A stretch of DNA of 64,000 bases from the NCBI GenBank assembly GCA_019694955.1, contig JAIBAX010000019.1, forward strand, positions 1 to 64,000, read 5' to 3'. The translations under genes were made by a program, and so were the position numbers. Shown piece by piece: positions 3,901 through 35,048 of this stretch. The notes beneath the pieces are model-generated. The model had not been told where the DNA came from. It saw only the letters and a program-made list of their open reading frames with translations, and searched no databases. Every line of letters begins with the position of its first letter. Within the stretch, counting starts at the first letter, position 1. The stretch comes from Chitinophagales bacterium. Its GTDB lineage: Bacteria; Bacteroidota; Bacteroidia; Chitinophagales; JADIYW01.

Positions 3901-4418
3901 CACATACCATCAATACGAGGATAGGTCTTGGCAATGCGTTTTCCGGGAATATTGACCTCTTGCGAGGAAAGGAACGCTATCAATCTGAATTCTTCATTCA
4001 AAATAGCTACGATATCCAGTCTTTTAAAACTGAGCCGAAACTCATCTATAACTACAAGTCTAATTTGCGCATCTCCACTTCATATGTATGGCTTTATAAG
4101 AAAAATAGCAATGAATTTGGTGGCGAAAAAAACAACGCACATCAACTAAATTTCGACTTGCGTTATTCGAAAGCTGGAAAACAAAGTTTGGAGGCAAAGT
4201 TTACATTTGCACAAGTCAAGTTTTCAGGAAATAGTGGAACAACGAGGTCGTATATCCTGTTGGAAGGTCTCCAACCCGGTAAAAATTATCTATGGAATCT
4301 CGGTTATGATAGAACGATTTCAAAAAATCTACAACTAAACATTGGGTACGAAGGAAGAAAAACAGGTGCTGCTAAAGTAGTAAATACAGGCAAGGCTTCT
4401 GTACGTGCCATCTTTTAG
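921..4418 (+). CDS. Large predicted outer-membrane protein; signal peptide lacks a normal start codon
   Basis: A protein of over 1,130 residues. Alternating hydrophobic/polar strands and many aromatic residues suggest a long beta-barrel (inference). A conserved-looking segment near residues 255-310 contains NQGPYRL, VYVDGVQL and EADYVIDYNTAEIRFTP. An acidic EF-hand-like stretch, WLDENEDGVQQQNEF, occurs near residue 815. The first conventional start is a TTG at 1008. The open frame continues upstream to a TAA at 897, and codons 921-1007 encode a textbook signal peptide (RSSLKRLFFILCSYFCIVLG, then YSQ). That stretch contains no ATG, GTG or TTG, only ATA at 921 and CTG at 933, so either a non-standard start is used or the start codon is mutated. 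I do not recognise a named family. Function unknown. Confidence 0.75.
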   Translation: MRSSLKRLFFILCSYFCIVLGYSQEPGVSLPASNLRSKVVFQVNDSIFMDSLSLVPGSIQVLKLSTGEKLMGSDFSYNFNNGYLIFNKPTDSIRILYRTFPVSFLYTYQNKKLENFVHKDTGDIWYNFYQPGIAQSEFLDFDGLQYSGNFSRGVSFGSNQDLVVNSAFDLQLSGRLSNGIEILAALTDNNIPIQPDGNTQQLQNFDKVFIQVSKDRHRLIAGDYVIASPKSYFLKFNKQLQGLSYAGGYTFKEQQLDVNGSASFAIAKGKFTRNTINGIENNQGPYRLTGNNGEVFLIILAGSEKVYVDGVQLSRGEEADYVIDYNTAEIRFTPNYLITKDSRIVVDFEYADRNYFRSLFHTGAYGSWKKLQFNLDFYSEQDSKNKPILQDINDSTANFLETIGNNINEAFISGINETEFSRNATLYFLKDTVIDGIVYDSVFVYSTDSIANLYSLSFTYLGPGKGHYNPTKNANNQRVYAWSAPINGVLTGSYEPVILIITPKKDQFLTAGVSYNTGKGWKFQADAGMSNRDYNTFSSNNNQENIGFSGHAAIFHNYLNKKDSSYRIQSRIEYEVKGAQFSPLEPYRSVEFTRDWNIQNQQQNKTEHILLAKTQLNTRNNLELGYEFGSFLRSNTYTGIKNKMSTQYNKNGWSFKGNFNILNARDTVNNSTFLRPDVYFSKYIPIAKGITTGFAFFQERNAIKKNNTDSLSSNSFFNNNTRIFVQNSDSGFIQTSVEYKWRNDLFPVATDFKVANQAHTLDMKGRFLKLKNQDLSWAFTLRNLQIKDSSLVKLQPEKTYLGRGEYGIRLKKGFFRMNILYELGSGQERVKEFSFVEVLTGQGVYSWLDENEDGVQQQNEFVIAEFQDSARYIKVFTTLNEYIKARQVTYNQVFTLTPKVLWFDAKGIKGFLAKFQFQSFLETKRKSLENAKNSPFNPFIFKSDDSSIVSLNLASRNNILLNPGSSTFSMNYSFQTNQDKILLVNGFDNRKKIAHTINTRIGLGNAFSGNIDLLRGKERYQSEFFIQNSYDIQSFKTEPKLIYNYKSNLRISTSYVWLYKKNSNEFGGEKNNAHQLNFDLRYSKAGKQSLEAKFTFAQVKFSGNSGTTRSYILLEGLQPGKNYLWNLGYDRTISKNLQLNIGYEGRKTGAAKVVNTGKASVRAIF

Positions 4419-12987: not shown

Positions 12988-14040
12988 ATGAAAATAGTAA
13001 ACAAAATGATTAAAATCCTTTTGTCAATTGTATTTTTAGGACAATTAATTGGATGCAAACCTAAGGACAAACTTGACAGAAGTAAGATTTATGTTGGCAA
13101 AGATTCCATTCAAGCTTTGGCTGCCAATTTATTTCAGGTGCTTCCTGATAGTGTACCCAATCCTGACAATCCACTTAGTTTTGAAAAGATAGCTTTGGGG
13201 AAGATGTTATATTATGACACAAAACTCTCCAATAAAGGAAATAATAGTTGTAACTCTTGTCATAATCTATCTACTTTCGGAGTAGACAATAAATCATTCT
13301 CTGTTGGAGATGACGGGTTGAATGGTGGCAGGAATTCGCCTACGGTATTAAATGCTGCCTTACATGCTTTTCAATTTTGGGATGGAAGGGCGAAAGATGT
13401 AGAAGAACAAGCAGGTATGCCGATTCTTAATCCGATAGAAATGCATATTCCGAATGAACGATTTTTGGAAGAAAAATTAAAAAATGATCCCAACTACGTA
13501 AAGCTTTTCAAGGAAGCCTTCCCTGATGCTTCAGCACCATTGACTTATGAGCATATAAGAATGGCTATTGCAGCTTTTGAAAGAACGCTCTTGACGCCTT
13601 CAAGATTTGATGATTATTTGGCCGGAAATAAAGATGCACTAACTCAGAAAGAAAAAACAGGCCTTAATACTTTCATTTCTATCGGCTGTACTACCTGTCA
13701 TTCCGGAGTTGCATTGGGAGGAAATATGTTTCAGAAGTTCGGTGTATTTGGAAATTATTGGGAATTTACAAAAAGTGCTAAAATTGACTCTGGTCGAGTG
13801 AGCATTACAAAAAATAATTCAGATGTATTTGTTTTTAAAACACCTTCTCTAAGAAATATTGAAAAGACATATCCATACTTTCATGATGGAAGTGTTTCGG
13901 ATCTAAAATCAGCTATTTCTATTATGGCTAAATTACAATTGAATAAAACGCTTTCAGAAGAAGAAGTGACAAATATTGAGGCATTTTTACAATCACTTAC
14001 TGGGAAAGTTCCTGAAGATGCCCTTGTAAATCCTTTCTAA
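12988..14040 (+). CDS. Di-heme cytochrome c peroxidase, lipoprotein
   Basis: 350 residues of the CcpA/MauG family, which reduces periplasmic hydrogen peroxide with electrons from small cytochromes. A lipoprotein signal ends at the lipobox LIGC, so the protein should be membrane-tethered in the periplasm. Two c-type heme sites are present: CNSCH near residue 88 and CTTCH near residue 234. Between them lie GRNSPTVLNAA and FWDGRAKDVEEQA, characteristic of the family, and FHDGSV lies near the C-terminus. Followed by a strong terminator-like hairpin at 14079-14108, so probably monocistronic. Confidence 0.94.
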   Translation: MKIVNKMIKILLSIVFLGQLIGCKPKDKLDRSKIYVGKDSIQALAANLFQVLPDSVPNPDNPLSFEKIALGKMLYYDTKLSNKGNNSCNSCHNLSTFGVDNKSFSVGDDGLNGGRNSPTVLNAALHAFQFWDGRAKDVEEQAGMPILNPIEMHIPNERFLEEKLKNDPNYVKLFKEAFPDASAPLTYEHIRMAIAAFERTLLTPSRFDDYLAGNKDALTQKEKTGLNTFISIGCTTCHSGVALGGNMFQKFGVFGNYWEFTKSAKIDSGRVSITKNNSDVFVFKTPSLRNIEKTYPYFHDGSVSDLKSAISIMAKLQLNKTLSEEEVTNIEAFLQSLTGKVPEDALVNPF

Positions 14041-14078
14041 CAGAACAATTAAGAACGATTTTTATCTTTTTTTCATTT

Positions 14079-14112
14079 ACGACCGTTTATTTCAAATTAG
14101 ACGGTCGTTTTT
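14079..14112 (+). terminator. Rho-independent terminator after the peroxidase gene
   Basis: ACGACCGT (14079-14086) pairs perfectly with ACGGTCGT (14101-14108) across a 14-base loop and is followed by TTTT. It sits 38 bases past the peroxidase stop codon. Confidence 0.75.
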
Positions 14113-14192
14113 ATTAACTGACAAAAATCATAGAGCAAGCTAATAAATATCATAGTATTTACTAGGTAAGTTGAATAATTTTGAATAAAAAA

Positions 14193-14603
14193 ATGATACA
14201 ATATACTATTCAACCGGAAATGAAATTAGAAGACTTCAAGCATTGGTTTAGAGGTCAGTTTGAAGGATTAAAGATTGAGTTTTTTACACAAGGGCATGGT
14301 GTGCAAGAGCCTTCTGTAAAAAGCAATATGATAAAGGACGTACACCTCACACTTGGAGAAGTATTTCATGTAAAGGAATCCTTTCACATTTCCATCGATG
14401 CTAATACCACTGTTGGAGATTTCGAACAATATTTGAGAAAACACGCTGATATTCATGTACAGATTTTTCGAAAGGCGGGACATGAATGGTTGGAAACGAT
14501 TATTACAGACAATAAAACGATATTCTTTTTAAATAGAAAAGCAATAGAAGACAGTCGACCGCTTGCACAGGATGAGCCGTTAGATTATCATGAACAAGAA
14601 TAA
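14193..14603 (+). CDS. Conserved hypothetical protein next to UspA
   Basis: About 136 residues, no signal peptide, no membrane segment. The sequence alternates amphipathic strands (VHLTLGEVFHVKESFHISIDANTTVGDF) with helices (EDFKHWFRGQFEG, FEQYLRKHADI), suggesting a small alpha/beta cytoplasmic protein. I do not recognise the family. It ends 20 bases before the UspA gene on the same strand, so the two are probably cotranscribed and it may have a stress-related role (inference). The ATG at 14193 is preferred to a TTG at 14181. Confidence 0.7.
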   Translation: MIQYTIQPEMKLEDFKHWFRGQFEGLKIEFFTQGHGVQEPSVKSNMIKDVHLTLGEVFHVKESFHISIDANTTVGDFEQYLRKHADIHVQIFRKAGHEWLETIITDNKTIFFLNRKAIEDSRPLAQDEPLDYHEQE

Positions 14604-22602: not shown

Positions 22603-23046
22603 ATGAAAAAATATTTCGTATTCGCCATGCTTGGTTTGATACTCTTCTCTTGTAAAAAGCAAGGAGGGAATGTTTCTACTACAACGGCTGCTCCGCAAGA
22701 AAAGGTCGTTCAACAGTATTTTGAATATTTTAACCAGCATGATTGGGAAAAAATGTCATCCTTGTATGCCGATTCAGCTCAAATGAAAGATCCTGCGTAT
22801 GGTGCAGAGATGATGGTGATGACACAAAACGATATTTTAAAAAAATATACCGAACTTGGGCAAATGATTCCTGATGTGCACGATTCAATTATTGCCATAT
22901 ATCCCTCCGGAAATCAGGTTGTCGTTGAATTCGTTTCCACTGGAACGGCTCCCGATTCAACAAAATTTATTCTTCCAATTTGTACCATCTTCACTATAGA
23001 AAATGGCGTTATCTCTAAAGATTTTACCTATTATGACAATTTTTGA
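22603..23046 (+). CDS. Small lipoprotein with NTF2/SnoaL-like domain
   Basis: 147 residues. The signal peptide ends in the lipobox LFSC, so the mature protein is lipid-anchored. The remaining 120 residues (VVQQYFEYFNQHDWEKMSSLYADSAQMKDP and the strand pairs up to VISKDFTYYDNF) match the cone-shaped NTF2/SnoaL-like fold that binds small hydrophobic ligands or acts as an isomerase or cyclase in other settings. The specific role is unknown. No obvious operon partner. Confidence 0.85.
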   Translation: MKKYFVFAMLGLILFSCKKQGGNVSTTTAAPQEKVVQQYFEYFNQHDWEKMSSLYADSAQMKDPAYGAEMMVMTQNDILKKYTELGQMIPDVHDSIIAIYPSGNQVVVEFVSTGTAPDSTKFILPICTIFTIENGVISKDFTYYDNF

Positions 23047-23072
23047 AAATCATATACCATAGTTTATTTTCT

Positions 23073-23525
23073 ATGATAAAAAGTATCGATTATGAATTAT
23101 ATGGATATGGGTGGGCAAGAATGAAGTTCATCTGTAATGACACATCCTATGACTTTGGTATTTCTTATCTTTCTAACCCATTACATGATTTGTTTATGAC
23201 TTTAGAATCGCTGATTCTAAAAAAAACGAGTAAAATCATGGTTAGTTTTTTTGATGAGCCTGGAAATAATATTTTAGAGATAAATCAATTATCTAATAAT
23301 TATGTATCCGTAGATGTTTTTTTTGTGGAATCTGCTGATGTTAAGATTCATAAGTTTTCTGAACAATCACTAATTTCTACTTTTGCTAAAAAAATCATAT
23401 TTTGTTTCGACAAATTATTAAGCACCCATACACTAAAAGAATATGTATCTATGTGGGGTTATGATTTTCCTATTGAACAATACAGTAAACTAAGAATATT
23501 AATTCACCATTATTTTTGGGATTGA
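23073..23525 (+). CDS. Hypothetical protein, AT-rich
   Basis: About 150 residues without signal peptide or membrane segment. Predicted strands (YELYGYGWARMKFICN, YDFGISYLS) precede helices and a C-terminal KEYVSMWGYDFPIEQYSKLRILI. The composition (acidic and aromatic, single domain, very AT-rich DNA) is like many immunity proteins of contact-dependent or T9SS toxins, but no toxin partner is present. The family is not recognised. The ATG at 23073 lies 27 bases after the NTF2-like gene. It is convergent with the acetyltransferase gene, with 4 bases between the stops. Confidence 0.65.
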   Translation: MIKSIDYELYGYGWARMKFICNDTSYDFGISYLSNPLHDLFMTLESLILKKTSKIMVSFFDEPGNNILEINQLSNNYVSVDVFFVESADVKIHKFSEQSLISTFAKKIIFCFDKLLSTHTLKEYVSMWGYDFPIEQYSKLRILIHHYFWD

Positions 23526-23529
23526 TTAT

Positions 23530-24051
23530 TTAAAGCCAATTTTTCCCCTCTATTATGTATTCAAAATTTAGCAATTCTTTTTCACCATAGTATGAAATAA
23601 CTACTTCTCTATTTTTCCTAGCGCCTAACTTTGTAATAGCTTTTTGAGAGCGAATATTATTTGCACCGATATGAAAATAAACCGTATCTACAAAGTTAAA
23701 CGCATAATCAAGCATGAGTTTTTTTAAAGCCGGATTATATGTTGAACCCCAATGATCTCTTGCGATGAAAGTATATCCAATAAATATACTTTTCTCTGCT
23801 TCATTCCAATCGTAAAATCTTGTGCTGCCAATAGGTTTCCCTAAACCATTATCAAATACTAAAAATGCACCTTTCGATGCTAAAGCACCTTCAAAAAATG
23901 TTTGAAATACTGGTTGTAAATACCTGTCTTTATTAGGATGTTGTTCCCAAATCTGTGGATCTTTGGCTATTGCGTACAAAATATCAAAATCAGTTTCCTT
24001 CAAAGGTACAATTCTAACAAGGTCATTCTCTATAAATGGCTTTAAATTCAC
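23530..24051 (-). CDS. GNAT acetyltransferase (RimJ/RimL-like)
   Basis: 173 residues with the GNAT pattern: an N-terminal VRIVPLKETDFDILYAIAKDP, a central GSTRFYDW strand, GYTFIARDHWGSTYNPALKKLMLDYAF around the acetyl-CoA loop, and FHIGANNIRSQKAITKLGARK with the motif-B N-x-x-SQ-A. Likely transfers acetyl groups to a protein N-terminus or small amine; the substrate is unknown. The start appears to be GTG at 24051, 3 bases after the NYN gene stop, so the two are probably one transcript. Confidence 0.9.
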   Translation of the reverse strand: MNLKPFIENDLVRIVPLKETDFDILYAIAKDPQIWEQHPNKDRYLQPVFQTFFEGALASKGAFLVFDNGLGKPIGSTRFYDWNEAEKSIFIGYTFIARDHWGSTYNPALKKLMLDYAFNFVDTVYFHIGANNIRSQKAITKLGARKNREVVISYYGEKELLNFEYIIEGKNWL

Positions 24052-24054
24052 GAC

Positions 24055-24828
24055 CTATTTAATTTTTATATAGATATGCCTGATTTTATTTTTTCCTGTT
24101 TCTCTTTCGTCAATTTCAAATCTATTGAGGCTTTTGATAAGTGGTAGCATCTTCTGGAAACCATAATTTCTTGGGTCGAAATCTGCTTTTTTCTTGAGGA
24201 TAAAATTGCCCAAATCACCTAAATAAGCCCATCCCGTCTCATCGGCAACATCGGAAATACTTGCCATGAGCAGTTTCAACAACTCATGGTTCACTTTATT
24301 GAGTGGCGGTGGTGGCGATTGTTTTTCTTTTTTTGTGCCATTCTTTTTACCTGAAACTTCTTCTTGCGCTTTTTCTTCGTTGGCTTTCAGGATTTCAATA
24401 TAAATAAATTTATCACAGGCCGTAATAAATGGGGTGAGGGTTTTCCTTTCGCCCATACCGATTACTTTCATTCCTGCTTCTCTTAATCTAATGGCTAATC
24501 TGGTAAAATCACTATCGCTGGAGACGATACAAAAACCGTCGACCTTACCGGAATACAGGATATCCATGGCGTCAATAATCATGGCACTATCGCTGGAATT
24601 CTTGCCAGAACTGTAACTGTATTGTTGGATGGGTGTAATCGCATTTTCTAGCAAAACTTTTTTCCATCCGGAAACCGTCGGTTTAGTCCAGTCTGCATAA
24701 ATTCGCTTAAATGTCGGAATGCCAAACTTAGCAATTTCTTCCATCATCTCCTTTATATTTGCATGCGGAATATTGTCAGCATCGATGAGTACTGCCAATC
24801 GCAAATCTCTTATTGTATCTTCTATCAT
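24055..24828 (-). CDS. NYN-domain ribonuclease-like protein with OST-HTH/LOTUS domain
   Basis: 257 residues. The N-terminal LabA/NYN PIN-like domain has the acidic residues expected for a metal-dependent RNase: VLIDADNIP, SSDSAMIIDAMDIL and FCIVSSDSDFTRLA. A Lys/Pro-rich linker (about 165-185) leads to a C-terminal winged-helix OST-HTH/LOTUS domain (LLKLLMASISDVADETGWAYLGDLGNFILKKK), a proposed RNA-binding module. The LabA plus OST-HTH arrangement is known across bacteria and is thought to act in RNA turnover. Leads a probable two-gene operon with the GNAT gene. Confidence 0.9.
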   Translation of the reverse strand: MIEDTIRDLRLAVLIDADNIPHANIKEMMEEIAKFGIPTFKRIYADWTKPTVSGWKKVLLENAITPIQQYSYSSGKNSSDSAMIIDAMDILYSGKVDGFCIVSSDSDFTRLAIRLREAGMKVIGMGERKTLTPFITACDKFIYIEILKANEEKAQEEVSGKKNGTKKEKQSPPPPLNKVNHELLKLLMASISDVADETGWAYLGDLGNFILKKKADFDPRNYGFQKMLPLIKSLNRFEIDERETGKNKIRHIYIKIK

Positions 24829-24904
24829 TTTGTACTTTTGTTCGGGGATTTATTTTAGGTAACAAAACTACGACTATTCGTTATGATATCCTAATATGTG
24901 TTTT

Positions 24905-25834
24905 TTAGCTAAGGTTAGTTGTGGTTTTGCTTGTTTTATAAAGGGAAACAACAACGCTAATAAACAATGTACACACAATAAATAATAATGAAAGATGTAT
25001 TGGAATTTTATATACATCTACCAATACCATCTTCAATCCCACAAAAACTAAGATGATAGCCAAACCTACGGATAAGTATTTAAAGCGCTCTATTACACCT
25101 GCCAGCGCAAAGTATAGAGAACGAAGTCCAAGAATGGCAAAAACATTGCTGGTATACACGATAAACTGATTTTTTGTAACGGCGAGGATGGCCGGAATGC
25201 TATCAACAGCAAAGATTAAATCCGTGATTTCAATCATAATTAACACCATAAATAGGGGAGTAGCCCATCTTTTTCCATCCTTTTTTATGAAAAAATTACT
25301 GCCGTGTAACTCGTTCGTAACGGGCATAATCTTTCGCATCCATTTTATAATTGGATTTTTTTCAGGTGCCATTTTCTTGTCCTTTTGTGTCAACATTTTT
25401 ATACCTGTAACGATGAGGATCGCACCAAAGAAATATATCGACCAATGGAATTTTTCTAATAAGGCAACGCCCGCAAAAATAAAAATGATGCGCATCAACA
25501 AGGCGCTCAAAATACCCCAAAACAATACTTTATGCTGATAAATGGGCGGAATTTGAAAGAAAGTAAAAATCAATACAAAAACAAAGATATTATCTACACT
25601 TAAAGCCTTTTCTATGAGGTATCCCGTGAAAAATTCTAAAGCAATTGTTTTACCATATTGAATATGTAAAAACAAATTAAACAATAAGGCTAAACTAATC
25701 CATACGCCTGACCAAATCAATGCTTCTCTTACGCTTACGACATGCGACTTTTTGTGAAAAACGCCTAAATCCAACGCCAACATCACTAAAACGAAGGTAT
25801 TAAAAACTACCCAAAACCAAATACTTACTTCCAT
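24905..25834 (-). CDS. TerC/Alx family integral membrane protein
   Basis: 309 residues, about nine membrane segments. The family signature EKALSVDNIFVFVLIF lies near residue 85, and EITDLIFAVDSIPAILAVT near residue 205 supplies the second acidic metal-site segment. TerC/Alx proteins export manganese or other divalent metals and confer tellurite or alkaline tolerance in some bacteria. The promoter shares a palindromic operator with the ABC export operon, and the divergent neighbour encodes a TetR regulator, which suggests common control (inference). Confidence 0.93.
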   Translation of the reverse strand: MEVSIWFWVVFNTFVLVMLALDLGVFHKKSHVVSVREALIWSGVWISLALLFNLFLHIQYGKTIALEFFTGYLIEKALSVDNIFVFVLIFTFFQIPPIYQHKVLFWGILSALLMRIIFIFAGVALLEKFHWSIYFFGAILIVTGIKMLTQKDKKMAPEKNPIIKWMRKIMPVTNELHGSNFFIKKDGKRWATPLFMVLIMIEITDLIFAVDSIPAILAVTKNQFIVYTSNVFAILGLRSLYFALAGVIERFKYLSVGLAIILVFVGLKMVLVDVYKIPIHLSLLFIVCTLFISVVVSLYKTSKTTTNLS

Positions 25835-25860
25835 TACTATAAATTTATACCACTAACAAC

Positions 25861-25877
25861 AATAGTATTACTATTTA
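25861..25877. promoter_or_regulatory. Putative TetR operator in the terC-tetR intergenic region
   Basis: ATAGTATTACTAT (25862-25874) is a perfect 6-1-6 palindrome. The same 13 bases occur before the ABC export operon at 31278-31290. It lies 27 bases from the terC start codon, just downstream of a TATATTTG -7 box for terC (complement of 25882-25889). Confidence 0.65.
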
Positions 25878-25881
25878 AGTT

Positions 25882-25889
25882 CAAATATA
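25882..25889 (-). promoter_or_regulatory. Probable terC -7 box (TATATTTG)
   Basis: On the minus strand this reads TATATTTG, matching TAnnTTTG. The operator palindrome lies immediately downstream, over the expected transcription start, so a bound repressor would block terC. Confidence 0.5.
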
Positions 25890-25908
25890 TACAATAATTA
25901 ATAAACAT

Positions 25909-25941
25909 TTTGCTATTATTCTATGTTTTTTACTATCTTTG
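25909..25941 (+). promoter_or_regulatory. Promoter of the TetR gene (-33 TTTG, -7 TATCTTTG)
   Basis: TTTG at 25909-25912 and TATCTTTG at 25934-25941 are separated by 21 bases and match the Bacteroidota consensus TTTG / TAnnTTTG. The ATG follows at 25952, giving a very short leader. Confidence 0.6.
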
Positions 25942-25951
25942 TATAAACAAA

Positions 25952-26629
25952 ATGGCTATGGATTTTCAGGTAAAGTTTACTGTCAATGATAAAATATTTT
26001 TAAAAGACCCGGAAAACAGTGTTTTAGGCAGACAGATTATTAAGAACGCCATAGATTTAATCTATCGAATTGGCTTTGAGAGTTTTACATTTAAAAAACT
26101 CGCCATTGAAATCAATACTACGGAAGCGACCATTTATAGATATTTTGAAAATAAACACCGCCTTTTGCTGTATATTCTCAATTGGTATTGGTCTTATATG
26201 AGTTTTTTGATCATGTTTAAATTGCAAAATATCGAAGACAATAAGTCTAAATTGGAAACCATTATTCATTTGCTGACACATGAATTACCGGAGAGTTCTG
26301 GTACGTTAGATTATAATAAGAAATACCTGAATCATATTGTTATTGCAGAAAGCAGTAAAGTCTATTTGGTGAAGGATATTCAGGAAATTAACAAGGATGA
26401 AGTTTTTAAACCTTATAAGGAACTGTGTTTAATGATTGCACAGATCATCACAAGTTATAATCCTTCCTATAAATACCCGCGTTCTTTGAGCAGTACGTTA
26501 ATTGAAACTTCTCATTATGAACAGTTTTTTATACATAACCTGCCAAGACTGACGGATGTTAGCCCTGAAAATAGGAATGAATTTACTGCCATGTTCCTTA
26601 ATGATTTGGTTTTTAAAGCTTTATTGTAA
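25952..26629 (+). CDS. TetR/AcrR family transcriptional regulator
   Basis: About 225 residues. The N-terminal helix-turn-helix (QIIKNAIDLIYRIGFESFTFKKLAIEINTTEATIYRYFENKHRLLLYIL) is typical TetR; the remainder is a helical ligand/dimerisation domain with no close named relative that I can see. The ATG at 25952 fits the TATCTTTG promoter box; an ORF start at 25910 would lie within the promoter. A 13-bp palindrome in the terC promoter and again before the ABC-HlyD-TolC operon is the natural candidate operator (inference). Confidence 0.92.
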   Translation: MAMDFQVKFTVNDKIFLKDPENSVLGRQIIKNAIDLIYRIGFESFTFKKLAIEINTTEATIYRYFENKHRLLLYILNWYWSYMSFLIMFKLQNIEDNKSKLETIIHLLTHELPESSGTLDYNKKYLNHIVIAESSKVYLVKDIQEINKDEVFKPYKELCLMIAQIITSYNPSYKYPRSLSSTLIETSHYEQFFIHNLPRLTDVSPENRNEFTAMFLNDLVFKALL

Positions 26630-26838
26630 CGTGAATAAGCAATCTGCGATAAATCGAAAATAGGATAAAATTTATATTTTTAATGTGATTTTGGGAACGT
26701 AGAACACTTGCTTTAAAGAGATTTTGACCGTATAGACGTAATGTTAACGTAAGGCTCGATTAATTAAAAAAATCTTTGTTCCCGACGAATTGGTAGGGAC
26801 TTGGCGCGTTGCGACTTTGCGGTTAAGAAACAACCGCC
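26630..26838. other. Intergenic region between converging TetR and TolC genes
   Basis: 209 bases. GCGGTT (26819-26824) can pair with AACCGC (26832-26837) next to the TolC stop, but no T-run follows on the minus strand. No gene seen. Confidence 0.35.
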
Positions 26839-28242
26839 TTAGTTCAATAACCCGGCACTCCATTGTATGGCATAATAGGTTTTCATGTACTTTGTTTGTA
26901 AATCTATCAGTTTCTCTTTCGCTTCCAGCGCTTTTGCTTCTCTGGTATTAATTAAAAACAGGGAACTTTCTCCATTTTGGTAGCGTGTTTCTTCTGCTTT
27001 AACCAATTGTACGTAATTCTTATACATCGATTTTTGTATATCAATCTGATTTTTTAGATTAAGTACTTCGTTGTAATATGATTTTATCTTGATAGAAATT
27101 TGCGCATCCTTTTGCGCTTGTGCCAATGTCGTTTCCTCGATTTTCAATTTTGCCTTTTCAAGATTTGCCCTTCCTTCCATGAAGAGGAGGGGAATTTCCA
27201 ATTTCAAACCATATCTGAAATTATTCTCAAATATAGGTCCTTCAACCAATGTATTGGCAAGATTAAATCCCTTTCCAAGTTGATTATAACTAAAATCCAA
27301 TTTTGGCAACACATCTTGAATCTTCAACTTTCGTTCAATTTCCAACATATCTAGTTTTAGCTCGTATGCTCTAAGTTCCGGATGTTGCTGAATGGCAGCG
27401 GACAGTAATACTTCTAAATTTACATCATCAGTCACCTGAATTTCACTGCTTTCCTGAGGAATAATATTTTCGGGTAAAATATAAGGCTGTTCATCCGCTG
27501 TCCATAAGTATAGCGACAACATCAATGCTGCATTTTGGAAATCGGTATAATATTGATTTTTGAGGTACTCAAAACCATTTAGTTGCGTAAGTGCTTCAAT
27601 GGTATCGATGGCGGGGCGTTCTCCCAAGAAATAGGATTTTTTCACCAATTCAAATCGCTGTTGGTTTACCGCCACAGCATCTTCCATGATGTTTAGCACT
27701 TGATAGGCATTTACCCAATTCCAGTATTCTCTTATGGCTTCCATGAGTAGATTATTGATTGTCGCATCGCGTTCAACTTCAGAAAGTGTATTGAAGACCT
27801 TTGCTTGTTGTAAAGACGCTCTTCTTTTGTCTAAAACCAAGTTCTTTATGAGTGGAATCGTCATGCCGATATAGCTGGATTGCCCGGATGTATTGGAGGG
27901 ATCGTAGTTGTTTCCTTTCAATGATTCCAAACCCATATTAAATTCAATGCCATACCATGCCGGGATATTTACTTTAAATGAATTGGAGGTATAATAATTA
28001 GTGCCATCAAAAGTTTTAATGGTATGATAGTTAGAAATATCCGGTTCGAAGGCACTTTTGGCTATTTGAATATCTGCTTCTGAGCGTTCTATTTGAAGCT
28101 GAGTTTGTTTTACAACAGGATGATACTTCTTTACCAACAATATCAGTTGCTCCAAATGGAGCGTTTGTAAACTGTCTTGCCCATAAATAGTTAGTGGCAG
28201 GCATATAAAGATTGTCAATAATAGTTTTATGGTAAAACGCAT
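26839..28242 (-). CDS. TolC-family outer-membrane efflux protein
   Basis: 467 residues with a signal peptide. The OEP-type helical repeats are evident: LEQLILLVKKYHPVVKQTQLQIERSEADIQIAKSAFEPDIS in the first half and a second copy beginning LLSAAIQQHPELRAYELKLDMLEIERKLKIQDVLPKLDFSYN. TolC proteins form the trimeric outer-membrane channel of tripartite exporters. It is the last gene of the three-gene operon ABC (29577-31238), HlyD (28244-29575), TolC, with gaps of one base each, so all three should be made together. Confidence 0.93.
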   Translation of the reverse strand: MRFTIKLLLTIFICLPLTIYGQDSLQTLHLEQLILLVKKYHPVVKQTQLQIERSEADIQIAKSAFEPDISNYHTIKTFDGTNYYTSNSFKVNIPAWYGIEFNMGLESLKGNNYDPSNTSGQSSYIGMTIPLIKNLVLDKRRASLQQAKVFNTLSEVERDATINNLLMEAIREYWNWVNAYQVLNIMEDAVAVNQQRFELVKKSYFLGERPAIDTIEALTQLNGFEYLKNQYYTDFQNAALMLSLYLWTADEQPYILPENIIPQESSEIQVTDDVNLEVLLSAAIQQHPELRAYELKLDMLEIERKLKIQDVLPKLDFSYNQLGKGFNLANTLVEGPIFENNFRYGLKLEIPLLFMEGRANLEKAKLKIEETTLAQAQKDAQISIKIKSYYNEVLNLKNQIDIQKSMYKNYVQLVKAEETRYQNGESSLFLINTREAKALEAKEKLIDLQTKYMKTYYAIQWSAGLLN

Positions 28243-28243
28243 G

Positions 28244-29575
28244 TTATTTCTTTTGTTTCTTAGCTAAATCTTCGTTGCTGTATTGATAATAATCGGGTGG
28301 GAAACCGTTAATATTTCGCCATACTTCGTACCAGATAGGAACATCTTTTAGCAATGCTATTCCTTGAACGCCACTACCTACTTTTATTTGTGCAGGCCAT
28401 TTTTTACTTGCCGTATCTTCGGAAACCAGTATCCGAAACATGCCATTATCGCTGATGGTATTTTCAAATGCAATGATTCTTCCTGAGAAGGTACCATAGC
28501 TGCTGTTGGGCCAACCACTGAAGACAATCGCAGGAAATCCGTCAAACATCAACCGCACCTCTTGTCCCACACTAATCAATGGCAAGTCAACAGGACGCAC
28601 GAATAATTCAACTGCATAATTCACTTTGTCCGGAACGATTACGGTAATCTGTTCACCTTCTTTTAATATCTCGCCAATACCCGTTTTGTTAGCCTGAACA
28701 ATCTGTCCGTCTTGAGGTGCAAGAATCACGTACATGCCATTTCTAATGGTGTAGTTGGTTACTGCATTTTCCAATTTTGCCACATCTCCCTCACTGGTAG
28801 CTATCTGACTTAAGCTTTGGTATCTATCGCCTTCTGCTTTGGTGATTTTTTCCAAATACTCTTGTTCAATGCTGTTTTGCTCAATTTTTGCATTGGTTAT
28901 TTCTTGTTTGGTTTGGGCAATCTTATTTTCTACCATCGTTTTCTTTGCTTGCACATTTTGAAAGGCAATATTCCTTTGTTGCAATTGTGTCTGAGAAACC
29001 AACCCTTCCTCATACATCTTCTGTTGGCGTTCATATTGATCTTTTGATAAAAGGTACTCATTTGTAACAGCGTCTAACTCTGCCTTATCTGCGGCTAACT
29101 TGTTTTCTAATTGTCCCAGTTTATTCTTTAGCTGTTCAATTTTCAATTGTTTCGCTGTTGTTAAGGCTTCTATTTGCGTTCCGGTGGTTACAATTTTTCC
29201 TTGATAGTACTGTATACTTCCTTTTTTAGCGTTTACTTGCTGTTGTGTTCTTGCAACAAGATTTGGATCAAGATAATCCTCTTTAATCTCAGATATCTGT
29301 AAAATGGTATCTCCTTTTTTAACAAAATCACCTTCTTTTACATGCCATTTTACAATTTTGCCGGGAATCGGTGAATGTACTTCCTGCGGGCGCTGTTCTT
29401 GGTATAAAGTCGTTACCTTACCTTTGGTCTTGATATTTTGTGTCCAAGGTAAAAGCAAGATTACCACACTTACGATAATAATTCCGACAAACCAATATCG
29501 GATATTACTTTGTTTGTTAATACGGTATATATATTTAAAAGACGCCAGTTCTATTTTACGCTGAATATTTTCCAT
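28244..29575 (-). CDS. HlyD-family membrane-fusion protein
   Basis: 443 residues. One N-terminal membrane segment (YWFVGIIIVSVVILLLP) is followed by a lipoyl half (GKIVKWHVKEGDFVKKGDTILQI), a long coiled-coil of about 160 residues with many Q/K/E heptads, the second lipoyl half (DGQIVQANKTGIGEILKEGEQITVIVPDKV) and a beta-barrel domain. This is the periplasmic adaptor that links an inner-membrane ABC exporter to TolC. Its gene sits between its two predicted partners with one-base gaps. Confidence 0.93.
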   Translation of the reverse strand: MENIQRKIELASFKYIYRINKQSNIRYWFVGIIIVSVVILLLPWTQNIKTKGKVTTLYQEQRPQEVHSPIPGKIVKWHVKEGDFVKKGDTILQISEIKEDYLDPNLVARTQQQVNAKKGSIQYYQGKIVTTGTQIEALTTAKQLKIEQLKNKLGQLENKLAADKAELDAVTNEYLLSKDQYERQQKMYEEGLVSQTQLQQRNIAFQNVQAKKTMVENKIAQTKQEITNAKIEQNSIEQEYLEKITKAEGDRYQSLSQIATSEGDVAKLENAVTNYTIRNGMYVILAPQDGQIVQANKTGIGEILKEGEQITVIVPDKVNYAVELFVRPVDLPLISVGQEVRLMFDGFPAIVFSGWPNSSYGTFSGRIIAFENTISDNGMFRILVSEDTASKKWPAQIKVGSGVQGIALLKDVPIWYEVWRNINGFPPDYYQYSNEDLAKKQKK

Positions 29576-29576
29576 A

Positions 29577-31238
29577 CTACGAGATTTTTGTTACTTGAGC
29601 AATACCATTATTCAAATGCACATGATAATCACATTTACTCAACAAATATTGATCATTAGATGCAATTATTACGGTCGTGTCGTTGAGGTGATGCAAAATA
29701 TAGCGGAGGATATTTTCCCGAATATTCTCCTCAAAGCCCAGCCATGCGTCTTCCATCAATAAAAGTCGCGGTTTTTTTGATAGGGCACGCAATAAAAGTA
29801 TCTTCTGAATGGCAGAACCGGATAGCCTTTTTCCGGTAGCATCGATTTGGGTGTCAAACCCATTTTGTAAGGTGAGAATAAAATGGTGTATCCCTAATTC
29901 TTTTGCTACTTCCGTAATCTTCTCTTGCGTGATTTCGCTATTTCCCAAGCTAATATTTTCCCATATTGTACCGGAAAATATTTCTTGCTGGTTCATAAAT
30001 AATGATGCTATGCGTCGCAGAGATTCTAGTGAATAATTACTCAATTGGGTTTGATTCATTAAGAGAAATCCCGAATAATCACTGTACCCACCCGCTAAAA
30101 TTTTAAGAAATGTAGACTTACCGGAGCCTTCATTACCTGTAACACAAGTCATACTTCCGGCAGGGATGCTCAGATTTATACCGTTCAATACCCTAGTTTC
30201 TTCGGTATAACCAAAACTAAAATCTATCATCTCAATTTCAACGCCCTTAGAAGGTCGAATTTCCGATTTTCCTGAAACTTCATCCGGCCCTTCAATTATG
30301 GTGGCTAATTTTTCTAACCCTGTAATCACATCATATACACTATCAATGCTGCCTATTAATTTTTCTATGGCAGAAAGTACCGTTAAAATAACAATCTCTG
30401 CCGCAATAAATTCGCCAATATTCAATTGCTGATTTAATAATAAGTAGGTTCCAAGTGTCAACATGGCTGTTGTTATTGCTACTTTAAATATCACCAATGC
30501 CCTATACTGATACAGCAGTACGCTAAAATGTGCCGTTCGGGACTTGAGGTATTTTATCAGATTATAGTCTGTCTTTTTCAAATTCAGGTGTGTACCCTGA
30601 CTAAATTTAAAAGACTTGATTACCCTGGCCATTTCTTCCAACCAAGCGGCTACCGCATACTTATTATAACTTTCTTCCAAGCTGGTCTCCAATCCTTTAT
30701 GCCCTGTCAAGCGTATAATTGCCCACAGCACCATCAATAATAAAACGCCAAATCCTATAAAAAATGGATGATAAAAAGATAGTAATAGCAGACCAAAAAG
30801 AATCTGAATGGAGGCCGCCGGAATATCTAACAATAATTTTGAAAGCCCCTTCTGTACATTTAAAGTATCAAAAAAGCAATTAATCTTTTCCGGCAAATAA
30901 TAATTATCCATTTTCTTTAAATCCAACTGCGGTATTTTTTCGGTAAACTGGAAAGCATACTTTGTAAATATCTTTTGTTGGATCTTTTCAATGATTTTCA
31001 TCTGATTGATCTGCAATGTTCCTACAAAAAATACACCCAATACGACAAGTGCTATTAATACATAAATAGAAGTAACCATCGTTGCACCCAACACAAAACC
31101 TATAATGGATTGAATACCAATAGGTACACTTAATTGAACGAGACCACTTAAGATGGCATAGAAATATATTGAAACAATCTCACTCTTCTCGAGCACAATT
31201 AATTGCCATAGTCTTCGTATTGGGTGTAAGGTTGTCAT
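29577..31238 (-). CDS. ABC exporter, fused membrane and ATPase domains, with degenerate catalytic residues
   Basis: 553 residues: a six-helix transmembrane domain (about 1-310) without a C39 peptidase, then an ATPase domain. Walker A is intact (GNEGSGKST near residue 373). The other motifs deviate: the signature reads LSGSAIQKILL instead of LSGGQ-x-Q, Walker B reads LLLMEDAW where D-E is normal, and the switch position reads ASND where T/S-H-D is expected. ATP hydrolysis may be slow or altered unless this is a tolerated subfamily trait. The HlyD and TolC partners follow directly, so the set is a type I-like exporter of an unknown substrate. Confidence 0.9.
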   Translation of the reverse strand: MTTLHPIRRLWQLIVLEKSEIVSIYFYAILSGLVQLSVPIGIQSIIGFVLGATMVTSIYVLIALVVLGVFFVGTLQINQMKIIEKIQQKIFTKYAFQFTEKIPQLDLKKMDNYYLPEKINCFFDTLNVQKGLSKLLLDIPAASIQILFGLLLLSFYHPFFIGFGVLLLMVLWAIIRLTGHKGLETSLEESYNKYAVAAWLEEMARVIKSFKFSQGTHLNLKKTDYNLIKYLKSRTAHFSVLLYQYRALVIFKVAITTAMLTLGTYLLLNQQLNIGEFIAAEIVILTVLSAIEKLIGSIDSVYDVITGLEKLATIIEGPDEVSGKSEIRPSKGVEIEMIDFSFGYTEETRVLNGINLSIPAGSMTCVTGNEGSGKSTFLKILAGGYSDYSGFLLMNQTQLSNYSLESLRRIASLFMNQQEIFSGTIWENISLGNSEITQEKITEVAKELGIHHFILTLQNGFDTQIDATGKRLSGSAIQKILLLRALSKKPRLLLMEDAWLGFEENIRENILRYILHHLNDTTVIIASNDQYLLSKCDYHVHLNNGIAQVTKIS

Positions 31239-31252
31239 AAAACATTTTTCAA

Positions 31253-31290
31253 CAAATATAATATACTTTTCTAAATAATAGTATTACTAT
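31253..31290 (-). promoter_or_regulatory. Promoter and operator of the ABC-HlyD-TolC operon
   Basis: The complement of 31253-31260 reads TATATTTG, a -7 box 15 bases before the start codon. The palindrome ATAGTATTACTAT (31278-31290) covers the expected spacer and -33 region, and no TTTG -33 element is visible. The 13-mer is identical to the one in the terC-tetR region. Confidence 0.65.
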
Positions 31291-31320
31291 CTTTATTATT
31301 TAATTTTAAATAATAAAGAT
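31289..31320. repeat. 32-bp all-but-perfect AT palindrome
   Basis: The arm at 31289-31303 is the exact reverse complement of 31306-31320, with a two-base centre. It contains a single G/C pair per arm. It lies between the DUF4349 stop and the ABC operon promoter, so it could be an AT-type terminator or a second regulator site. Confidence 0.7.
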
Positions 31321-31335
31321 TTCATTACTATCATA

Positions 31336-32244
31336 TCAAGAAACCATATGTTTGTCAGTAAAACTGCCAGTAGGAAGTATATTAAATCTTTTTTGCAAAT
31401 AATATCCCAATGCAATTAAACCCCATAATGGCCAAATTTTAAACAGTAGTAGCAAGATAGCTAAAATTGCATTCCAACCGATAGAAATGGCTTCCCATGC
31501 TTTGACGAAGAAGCTTGGTTCAAAGTCTTTTACAGCGGCATGATATGGATAGGAATCGGTAACAATAGCTTGCTTTTGATAAATAGATAATCGGACGGTG
31601 CTATAATTTACCTGATCCGCCAGATTCAAATTACTGACAACAGCTGCATCCGTTTGTGTTGCCTTATTATAGTAATCATTTTGAAGGTCTACATTCTCAT
31701 TGGCGATATTTGCCACAACTTTCTGATCAATTAGTTCGCTGTATTGTTGGTTTCTTTGTTGTTCTAATTCATTTTCTACCATTTGTATGGACACATCTTC
31801 TGCTTTAATTAAGCGATGGTCTAAAAAATCCATGCAGTTGGAAATTTGCTTAAGAGTGGTATCCATTCTTTCACTGGGAATTCTTATGGTAATATCATTT
31901 GTAGTGGTACAATACCGTCTTTCGGAGATGGAATCTTTGCTGCTTCTGTATCTTTCCGAAATATCTATCGTGTTTTTCATATCTGTCATAGTCACAAAAC
32001 CGCCCATTGCCCTTGTAATATCTTCAATTTGTTCTGTAGATTGCTTCACATCGTTCACCCGAAACTTAATGTCTGCTGTTCTAACAAATTTTCTAGTGAG
32101 TTGTTTGATTTTACTTGGCAAAACTTTTGCGGTTGAATCTGTTGTTGCTGTTGTTTCGCTTGCAGCATAAAAATCGCCTTGTTTGCAGGCATTCAAAAAT
32201 AGGAGTGTGGTACAGATTAATAGTACCTTGATTGCATTTTTCAT
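31336..32244 (-). CDS. DUF4349 domain lipoprotein
   Basis: About 302 residues. The signal ends at the lipobox FLNAC. The DUF4349 core (RTADIKFRVNDVKQSTEQIEDITRAMGGFV, then TIRIPSERMDTTLKQI and DVSIQMVENELEQQRNQQYSELIDQ) precedes a coiled-coil and one C-terminal membrane helix (ISIGWNAILAILLLLFKIWPLWGLIALGYYL). The family is of unknown function and resembles an extracytoplasmic sensor. The ATG at 32244 starts the signal peptide. It is on the same strand as, but separated by its own promoter from, the ABC operon. Confidence 0.88.
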   Translation of the reverse strand: MKNAIKVLLICTTLLFLNACKQGDFYAASETTATTDSTAKVLPSKIKQLTRKFVRTADIKFRVNDVKQSTEQIEDITRAMGGFVTMTDMKNTIDISERYRSSKDSISERRYCTTTNDITIRIPSERMDTTLKQISNCMDFLDHRLIKAEDVSIQMVENELEQQRNQQYSELIDQKVVANIANENVDLQNDYYNKATQTDAAVVSNLNLADQVNYSTVRLSIYQKQAIVTDSYPYHAAVKDFEPSFFVKAWEAISIGWNAILAILLLLFKIWPLWGLIALGYYLQKRFNILPTGSFTDKHMVS

Positions 32245-32534
32245 GTAATTAATATTTAAAGTGATGAAATTGGTATTCATCCCTAAATGCGTAAACCACA
32301 AAAAAAGTAACCGATGTAAATTTTAGATTAAGGAATTTTAACGAAAACGACACCTTGTATTGCAGACAAACCTATTCCATTATTTCATTTTCGTGGAGAT
32401 ACGAAAATGGGGGCAATCGGGGGCAATCTATTTTCTCTTTTTATTTATAAACAAGGAAATAAAAAGAACCGAAAGCCTTTGAAATATTGCTTCGGAAAAC
32501 TTCGAGCCTTATAATGAATCATTGTTGACAGACC
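32245..32534. other. Intergenic region with a hairpin and a G-rich tandem repeat
   Basis: CATTTTCGT (32386-32394) pairs perfectly with ACGAAAATG (32401-32409) across six bases. Directly behind it is a tandem GGGGGCAATC GGGGGCAATC (32409-32428), unusual in this AT-rich sequence. No gene seen. Confidence 0.6.
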
Positions 32535-33314
32535 TCAATTTATAGAAATAATATTAAAAACTTCTTTCTTAATTGCAATCATGGAATTAAACAGCGGATA
32601 TGGTGCACTTTTAAAAGAGAATTGTACTTTTTTAATCAATTTTTGATTTTTGAACATGTATAACTCTGTTACCCAATCATCATCACTTCCTTTATATTGA
32701 TTTTTTAAATTTAATATATCAATATATTTAAAATACCTAAATAGATCAAAATTCTTAATTTCTAAAGAATACCTCCCATTAAATTCCGTATTTTTTGAAC
32801 CTAAATATGTGACAATTCCAATATCATTTGCAGTTATAGTTTCTATTGGGCAATTTCCAAAACAACCTAAGAATTTTATTTCAATACTATCAAAATTATC
32901 ACTATTATAATTATACTCATTTATTCTTTTAAAGTTAAAAAGTATATTCTGAGACATTATTTCCCACAATAGGATTGAGTCTTTATTTGCCGAAATGACA
33001 ATATTTCTATCTGAAAAATCGATATTATTTGCTTTTATCATTAAGGTATCATCATTTAGTACATAATGAAATCCAGAAATAGATTTTCCGTTATTATACT
33101 TTTTCGGTGGGAAATAATCTATTGAATCTTTGTTAATATAAAAACCATTTATACCACTATATTTCGGGGTTATAGTAGATTTCTTCAAAACTTTTCCATC
33201 CATTATGAGGTAAGAATCTAGTGCATAATAACCTTCAAATAGCACTACGGGTCTTCTTTTATTACACCCTATGCATAATAAAATCATAAAGAAAATAAAG
33301 AAACGATATTTCAT
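32535..33314 (-). CDS. Lipoprotein with DUF6438-like domain, AT-rich
   Basis: 259 residues. The signal peptide ends at CIGC. The N-terminal half is strand-rich (ALDSYLIMDGKVLKK, ISGFHYVLNDDTLMIK) and resembles a lipocalin-like module. The C-terminal half has the DUF6438 pattern: FDSIEIKFLGCFGNCPIETITANDIGIVTYLGSKNTEFNGRYSLEI, with the C-F-G-x-C-P cysteine pair. Function unknown. The coding DNA is noticeably more AT-rich than the S41 protease gene beside it, hinting at a different origin. Confidence 0.8.
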   Translation of the reverse strand: MKYRFFIFFMILLCIGCNKRRPVVLFEGYYALDSYLIMDGKVLKKSTITPKYSGINGFYINKDSIDYFPPKKYNNGKSISGFHYVLNDDTLMIKANNIDFSDRNIVISANKDSILLWEIMSQNILFNFKRINEYNYNSDNFDSIEIKFLGCFGNCPIETITANDIGIVTYLGSKNTEFNGRYSLEIKNFDLFRYFKYIDILNLKNQYKGSDDDWVTELYMFKNQKLIKKVQFSFKSAPYPLFNSMIAIKKEVFNIISIN

Positions 33315-33440
33315 ACCTATTACTCAATTTCAAAAAATCAACAAAGTATGCTACAAAGAAACCTCAAAAAATAGATAATTCTTCGAGAAACTTTGTGCCT
33401 TCTTAGTGCGCTTGGTGAAATTCGAAAAAGCTTATCAAGC

Positions 33441-35048
33441 TTATTGCAACGCTTTCAACGCCGCCTGAACAGCTTTATCATCCGATAAAATCAAAGGATA
33501 AAACCCTTCATTTTTCCATATTTGCTTAGCGATATATGCTTTTAGTCTTTTGTTTACTTCTGTTTTTGATACACTCGTAAATTTATTGTATTCTTTTGGC
33601 ACTTGATTACTAAAGGCATATTGGACAAACTCCTGATATAAAGCGTCACTTACTTTAAAATTATCCTTATATGTCTGTTTTGTATATGCTTGAAAATCTC
33701 CTTTATGGGAAGCATAGTAATTATAAGCGAATTCCTGCACTAACCCTCTGCCAAAGGCTTCGCTCAAAAACGGATTATAATTAGTGGTATCCAAAGGAAT
33801 AAATATATCCGGCGTAATTCCACCACCGCCATACACTTTGCGCTTTTTTATTTTAGTATAAAAAACCTCGCTTTCATCATTTTTAATACTGTCTTTGCTA
33901 AAAATTTCGCCGTGTTTGACACGTTCCAGCATTTCATTATTATAGTTATCCAATCCCTCGCTGTATGGCTTTTGGATACATCTCCCAGAAGGGGTATAAT
34001 ATTTTGCTATGGTGAGGCGTAGGGCAGAATTGTCGCCCAATTGATACTGATCTTGCACCAATCCCTTCCCAAATGAGCGGCGACCGATAATTACGCCTCT
34101 ATCCCAGTCCTGAACTGCTCCGGCAACAATTTCACTAGCAGAAGCAGAGCCTTCGTCTATCAAAATGGCAATTTTACCAGCTTCAAACTGCCCCGGAATT
34201 TTGGATTTATATTCCATCTTGGGATAAGAACGCCCTTTTGTAATGACCAAATCTTTCCTGCCATCGATGATTTCGTCTAAGATGGCGGTGGCCTGCTCCA
34301 AGTATCCTCCAGGATTTTCCCTTAAGTCCAAGATTAAGCTCTTCATACCTTGACCTTTCAAAGAGGCAAGCTTCTGCATAAATTCGCTATAGGTCGTTTG
34401 TGCAAAGCGGGAAATTTTGATATATCCCACATCCTTATTCACCATAAATCCGGCATCTACACTATACAAAGGAATTTTATCCCTTTTAATATTATACACC
34501 ACTAAATTCTTTTGCCCATTTCTTTGAATGGTCACTTTCACTTTCGTTCCACTGGGACCTTTCAGTTTTTTGACAACATCGGCATTTTGGATGCCAATTC
34601 CTGCAACCAAACTATCGTTGATACGGATGATTTTATCTCCGGCCTGAATGCCTAATTGTTCGCTAGGCCCTCCCGAAATAGGTGTTACCACCATGATGGT
34701 ATCATTGACGATGAAGAACTCTATACCTATACCATCGAACTCTCCCTCCATCTCTTCCTCAACATTGGCGATTTCTGTAGCCGGAATATACACAGAATGG
34801 GGATCCAAATGCTCTAACATCGACGCAATAGACTCGTCATATAGTCTACTTTTGTCAACATCATCCACATAGTTTTCTTCAATATAATTGATGATTTCAT
34901 CGAATTTTGTGGATCTGGATGGGCTAAAAGGGCGATACTTTGAAGAATTTAAATCCTGAAGTTTGTACCCCAAAAACATTCCACCTGCTAAAACCAAAGA
35001 AAAAACAAACGGTATCCAGATTTTTAGTTGCTTATTATCCATAATCAT
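33441..35048 (-). CDS. Carboxy-terminal processing protease, S41 family (CtpA/Prc type)
   Basis: 535 residues: an N-terminal membrane anchor, a PDZ domain (about 85-170: DGIGIEFFIVNDTIMVVTPISGGPSEQLGIQAGDKIIRIND) and the S41 core. The catalytic Ser lies in DEGSASASEIVAGA near residue 305 and the Lys in GRRSFGKGLVQ about 25 residues later, the usual Ser-Lys dyad. The periplasmic protease trims C-termini of envelope proteins. The start can be either ATG (35048 or 35042). Divergent from RNase R. Confidence 0.94.
   Translation of the reverse strand: MIMDNKQLKIWIPFVFSLVLAGGMFLGYKLQDLNSSKYRPFSPSRSTKFDEIINYIEENYVDDVDKSRLYDESIASMLEHLDPHSVYIPATEIANVEEEMEGEFDGIGIEFFIVNDTIMVVTPISGGPSEQLGIQAGDKIIRINDSLVAGIGIQNADVVKKLKGPSGTKVKVTIQRNGQKNLVVYNIKRDKIPLYSVDAGFMVNKDVGYIKISRFAQTTYSEFMQKLASLKGQGMKSLILDLRENPGGYLEQATAILDEIIDGRKDLVITKGRSYPKMEYKSKIPGQFEAGKIAILIDEGSASASEIVAGAVQDWDRGVIIGRRSFGKGLVQDQYQLGDNSALRLTIAKYYTPSGRCIQKPYSEGLDNYNNEMLERVKHGEIFSKDSIKNDESEVFYTKIKKRKVYGGGGITPDIFIPLDTTNYNPFLSEAFGRGLVQEFAYNYYASHKGDFQAYTKQTYKDNFKVSDALYQEFVQYAFSNQVPKEYNKFTSVSKTEVNKRLKAYIAKQIWKNEGFYPLILSDDKAVQAALKALQ

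Follow-up and report, generated by a model that had tools for sequence, protein, structure and literature searches.

A shared palindromic operator probably places a TerC protein and a type I-like exporter under one TetR-family regulator in a Chitinophagales bacterium

The 64,000-nucleotide stretch of Chitinophagales bacterium DNA analyzed here (contig JAIBAX010000019.1, positions 1 to 64,000; the window) carries two exact copies of the 13-mer ATAGTATTACTAT, one between terC and a tetR gene and the other at the promoter of an exporter operon. The 13-mer is likely to be the operator core of the TetR encoded at positions 25952-26629, and we propose that this protein represses the exporter and terC together and is released by a ligand. 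As judged from sequence, joint switching of terC and the exporter is very probable, and terC is probably a target of TetR repression.

The regulator (225 amino acids, plus strand) has the TetR_N helix-turn-helix by which membership of the TetR/AcrR family is judged (PF00440, 36.4 bits against a cut-off of 24). Its AlphaFold2 model (pLDDT 88) has ten helices in an all-helical TetR fold, which Foldseek matched to TetR structures with E values down to 1e-4 and a TM-score of about 0.6. On the minus strand at 24905-25834, terC encodes a 309-amino-acid membrane protein of the TerC/Alx family (PF03741, 183.9 bits; TIGR03718, 424.7 bits against a cut-off of 246.4). The exporter is tripartite and type I secretion-like, and its three consecutive genes form one operon, also on the minus strand. 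The first gene encodes an ABC transporter with membrane domain and ATPase (29577-31238; PF00005 over its cut-off, PF00664 at 26.2 bits, below 28), followed by genes for a HlyD-like adaptor (28244-29575; PF13437 over its cut-off) and a TolC-like outer membrane protein (26839-28242; PF02321 over its cut-off). None of the named exporter subfamilies sought (PrtD, HlyB, bacteriocin exporter) could be assigned, as all NCBIfam scores fell far under their cut-offs (e.g., TIGR01842, 164 against 510). Downstream of terC, on the same strand, is a gene for a protein with NYN and OST-HTH/LOTUS domains (24055-24828).

The operator is a 6+1+6 inverted repeat, with perfect arms (ATAGTA and TACTAT) around a single central T. 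Copy 1 (25862-25874) lies in the gap between terC and tetR, 90 bp upstream of the tetR start, a spacing that is also seen in relatives, and copy 2 (31278-31290) lies in the exporter promoter. A preliminary description of this DNA had reported the 13-mer as a perfect palindrome in the terC-tetR intergenic region and over the -33/spacer region of the exporter promoter; both copies are indeed exact, and only the start it quoted for the first, 25861, was one base off. It had also placed a -7 box close to each copy, and TATATTTG does occur on the minus strand at 25889-25882, as a candidate box for terC, and at 31260-31253, as a candidate box for the exporter operon. Another candidate, TATCTTTG at 25934-25941 on the plus strand, may serve tetR and stands 59 nt from copy 1, a distance that is 60 nt in several close relatives. 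The -7 boxes were assigned by consensus match only, and scans for sigma-70 promoters and terminators gave signal at chance level only. The geometry is unlike at the two targets, with the operator 17 nt upstream of the exporter box and 7 nt downstream of the terC box. Abutting copy 2 is an AT-rich perfect hairpin (CTTTATTATTTAA..ATAATAAAG, 31291-31318) that separates the exporter promoter from a DUF4349 gene.

Conservation in relatives, which the preliminary description had suggested as a check, is the decisive evidence and ties the operator to tetR across more than a hundred related loci. For this comparison, 80 loci encoding TetR relatives (46-74% identity) were gathered from genome contigs, together with loci from the window's family and order. 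The motif with any base at its center, ATAGTAnTACTAT, was found within 150 bp upstream of 40 of 77 tetR homologues as an exact match and of 62 of 77 with at most one mismatch, compared with 1 of 602 and 4 of 602, respectively, for the upstream regions of other genes in the same loci. Within the same 77 tetR upstream regions the reversed control was found 0 times, and dinucleotide shuffles averaged 0 exact matches and 0.16 matches with at most one mismatch. Among those loci, only one exact intergenic copy not adjoining tetR was found, in L058, where it occupies a SulP promoter at a distance of 1.6 kb from the tetR gene. In alignment, the sites form a longer, 19-bp dyad with consensus ATRATAGTAWTACTATYAT and symmetric variation; on our reading of the alignment, the flanks of copy 1 match this extended consensus less well than do those of the exporter site. 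Twenty-two whole genomes held 34 exact motifs against 19 for the control, and nearly all of the tetR-bearing genomes among them that were read in detail had one copy directly upstream of tetR and the rest in ORFs or beside unrelated genes, so that the operator is a local rather than a global site. The TetR recognition region is highly conserved among homologues, and the operator is conserved across phylum-level distances. These comparisons show that the operator and this TetR subfamily are inherited together.

The operator also keeps a register with the promoter that it faces. When the strand carrying the gene divergent from tetR is read, 45 of 64 loci show the start of a Bacteroidota -7 box (TAnnTTTG) 16-21 nt past the operator, with 18 nt the commonest distance, and this register is independent of the target gene. 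The window exporter promoter (ATAGTAATACTAT, 17 nt, TATATTTG) fits the register, so that the operator would cover the -33 element and spacer there; the spacer itself, TATTTAGAAAAGTATAT, resembles that of relatives with a divergent exporter (e.g., L017). An exporter of the same type is divergent from tetR in about 40 loci, and the tetR/exporter layout is found, for example, in the culturable relative Dyadobacter. In genome G425 (the source of locus L046), the only tetR found, on contig C65, adjoins SulP and carbonic anhydrase genes, and on contig C22 a same-type exporter has an exact operator 18 nt from a -7 box, with tetR absent from the 4 kb read upstream. No site was found near the exporters of G004 and G007, two same-family genomes without this tetR, although in G004 the contig breaks off within the ABC gene, before reaching the promoter. 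Locus L041 had been considered as a further exporter moved away from tetR and was ruled out, since there are two copies of tetR in that genome and an operator accompanies each of them.

The motif has just two exact genomic copies in G003, a genome of the window's family, one between tetR and the ABC gene (contig C98) and the other before terC (contig C160). The ends of these contigs are identical over 127 bases within TolC, which indicates that the order in G003 is tetR, operator, ABC, HlyD, TolC, operator, terC. These five genes and two operators recur in the window in a different order (terC, operator, tetR, then TolC-HlyD-ABC and operator), and the best explanation of the window's layout is that it is a rearranged form of the G003-type cluster. 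Locus L218 has two tetR copies (3158-3904 and 13818-14558), each with an operator, that flank an exporter operon at a separation of about 10 kb, and this arrangement is possibly an intermediate toward the window's layout.

TerC is a recurrent candidate target. It is encoded in the operon divergent from tetR in loci L078, L082, and L088 (with DedA and a small zinc-ribbon-like protein), in L192 of the same-family genome G010 (with DUF47 and PiT), and in L199 (with DedA). On a FastTree tree of 123 TetR proteins, which has many weak forks, the TerC label requires three changes, the same number that branches with good support enforce; there are at least three separate places on the tree where TerC appears in the tetR-divergent operon. 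An alternative, which we regard as unlikely, is that TetR controls only itself and the exporter, and that terC has an independent promoter and came to lie beside the tetR operator after rearrangement. The relatives' spacing between copy 1 and tetR would explain the presence of that copy without terC, its register at terC is unlike that at all other targets, and a terC-tetR adjacency exactly like that of the window was absent from the best 30 plus 20 loci inspected, from 396 genomes sampled in the order. Against this alternative, G003 too has an operator before terC, TerC lies repeatedly in the tetR-divergent operon of other lineages, and the terC -7 box is just 7 nt from copy 1. The service of the G003 operator to terC is nevertheless unsure, because a GC-rich hairpin lies between them. 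Two same-family genomes have such hairpins, which may be terminators or leader structures, about 25-35 nt ahead of terC (L236, G003:C160 at about 980-1015, and L193 near 5230), and the window has none. The terC gene of same-family G005, which lacks this tetR, has no site in the 65 bp seen, and in G010 an exact copy falls inside the terC coding sequence, indicating that single copies can arise by chance. The joint repression of terC and the exporter that the preliminary description predicted is strongly supported for the exporter, by the conserved operator beside tetR, the fixed register, and the unlinked G425 exporter operator. For terC it gains from G003 and from the tetR-divergent operons, and it is weaker in the window itself because the operator there lies downstream of the terC -7 box, outside the register of the other targets.

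Under joint repression, a TetR dimer bound at 31278-31290 would cover the exporter -33 element and spacer and block RNA polymerase. With the terC box 7 nt before copy 1, the operator would occupy the first transcribed bases of terC, and TetR on 25862-25874 would sit at about +4 to +16 of the transcript, where it may block promoter escape or early elongation. This placement differs from that at other targets but is workable for a repressor. Ligand would then free TetR from DNA and derepress terC and the exporter together. The TetR family includes a few activators, and binding over the -33/spacer region activates in some regulators, so TetR might instead be an activator or dual regulator at one of the sites, bound upstream of the -7 box at the exporter. 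We consider this improbable, as overlap with the exporter -33 element and with the terC +1 position both suit repression, which is also the usual mode of action of TetR proteins that have divergent target operons.

The preliminary description had also proposed a genome scan for further copies. The window's own genome (4.1 Mb, 103 contigs) has three exact copies of ATAGTATTACTAT, two of them in the window and the third inside a 262-codon ORF on contig C30, and that position led us to drop it as an additional target. Exact ATAGTAnTACTAT occurs 4 times against 0 for the reversed control, the extra copy (C89) adjoining a stop codon between unrelated genes, which leaves just these two exact copies outside the window. 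The motif is not enriched when up to one or two mismatches are allowed, with 6 found in the window against a mean of 3.3 expected and 25 in the genome against 27 for the reversed-pattern control (one mismatch). As the mismatch-tolerant motif is no commoner than its control, counts from a single genome are weak rather than decisive evidence. Two carbonic anhydrases were found in this genome, one of them in a bestrophin-carbonic anhydrase operon, and neither had a motif within one mismatch among the matches listed, so that they were rejected as further targets. A CRISPR-like array of GTTTCAATTCCAATATGGTACGATTAAGAGAAG repeats in the same genome (L101, G000:C63 near 80474) has one motif match in a spacer. 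That the repeats are chance AT-rich palindromes, as the AT content of 63% and the one-mismatch counts might suggest, has a negligible probability, being in our view refuted by the upstream comparison (40/77 against 1/602) and opposed by the conserved register and the phylum-level conservation.

What signal might this TetR read? Neighbors of 123 tetR genes (duplicates removed) were an exporter in 49 cases, carbonic anhydrase, SulP, or bestrophin in 43, TerC/DedA in 6, CarB in 2, and other genes in 23, and Pfam confirmed carbonic anhydrase, Bestrophin_2, SulP, a SulP-carbonic anhydrase fusion, DedA-type VTT, IDH, and CarB in examples. Across the TetR tree, target genes switch often, whereas the DNA-binding region is nearly invariant, as are many C-terminal domain residues; this suggests that the proteins respond to a single kind of signal and that their targets are exchanged. 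TetR relatives face carbonic anhydrase, bestrophin, SulP, or the SulP-carbonic anhydrase fusion, with the same operator, in L013, L020, L025, L029, L032, L057, L060, L066, L075, L079, L083, and L092, and such loci may possibly form an inorganic-carbon regulon; L032, which comes from Flavobacterium hibisci, has a tetR/bestrophin-carbonic anhydrase layout. The same TetR, operator-like sites, and carbonic anhydrase/SulP/bestrophin genes occur in Pseudomonadota, namely Methylobacter (L060, L071, L072, L089, L090), Nitrotoga (L066, L075, L086), and Crenothrix (L076), and the nesting of these TetRs among Bacteroidota sequences suggests transfer. Loci L017 and L054, close to Bacteroidota ones, come from records titled Actinomyces viscosus and Thermoanaerobaculia and are probably on mis-labelled or mis-binned contigs.

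All of carbonic anhydrase, SulP, bestrophin, CarB, and IDH have a connection with CO2 or bicarbonate. Because the genes opposite homologous TetRs are often those for carbonic anhydrase, bestrophin, or SulP, bicarbonate or pH may be the signal. A title cited in PMC10550928 links TerC/Alx to alkaline conditions in E. coli. The CO2- or bicarbonate-related targets and the alkaline-linked TerC/Alx together suggest inorganic carbon or pH, as a lead only. A tentative model is that one TetR subfamily, in Bacteroidota and some Methylobacter, Crenothrix, and Nitrotoga, senses a single inorganic-carbon/pH signal and that its fixed-register operator controls interchangeable targets: beta-carbonic anhydrase plus bestrophin/SulP bicarbonate transport, TerC plus DedA/PiT, and the type I-like exporter. 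If so, terC and the exporter in the window would be outputs of a bicarbonate or pH response and not of a metal response. The earlier suggestion that metal handling and export form one response is plausible, but from the wider regulon the shared signal may be inorganic carbon or pH instead of metal.

Transcription factor binding sites are poorly known in Bacteroidota, and for a widespread TetR subfamily of this phylum, undescribed as far as the literature search shows, the present analysis names a regulator, an operator, and a set of targets. That search, for the operator sequence or for TetR with carbonic anhydrase, bestrophin, SulP, or Flavobacterium exporters, gave no relevant paper; subscription papers and databases lay outside it, and absence is not proof. 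Which signal joins carbonic anhydrase, bicarbonate transporters, TerC, and the exporter can now be tested directly. The regulatory tie between a TerC protein and an exporter agrees with recent Bacillus work on TerC and export (PMC12096827, PMC10550928). TerC proteins handle Mn, and in Bacillus surfactin export depends on one of them, MeeY, which interacts with the SwrC pump (PMC12096827); exported enzymes are metalated by TerC proteins (PMC10550928).

Among known systems, Alx/MeeY-type TerC proteins under the Mn-responsive yybP-ykoY riboswitch share the TerC/Alx family with the window terC, but the window locus has no Rfam riboswitch (no match of any kind up to E = 1 in 23000-33500), and its putative control is by the TetR operator. 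AibR (5k7f/5k7z) and Bacillus FadR (5gpa, 3whb) are the best sequence matches to the window TetR and are also among its fold matches. They differ in that the sequence match is limited to the DNA-binding half, that TM-scores are about 0.5-0.6, and that no recurrent acyl-CoA gene targets were seen. The best matches cover about residues 18-126, and the C-terminal domain matched no solved TetR by sequence; a guess at the ligand from solved structures was dropped because of this limited match. The window system, TetR-family by domain and predicted fold, appears to work like a classical local TetR repressor. With the local repressors that face a divergent exporter (TetR/tetA, QacR, AcrR) it has in common the PF00440 helix-turn-helix, the predicted TetR fold, an inverted repeat between regulator and transporter, and a small regulon. 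It differs from them in its operator, which we matched to no described TetR operator, and in the targets found under that operator in related genomes, which are carbonic anhydrase, SulP, bestrophin, TerC/DedA, CarB, and IDH operons.
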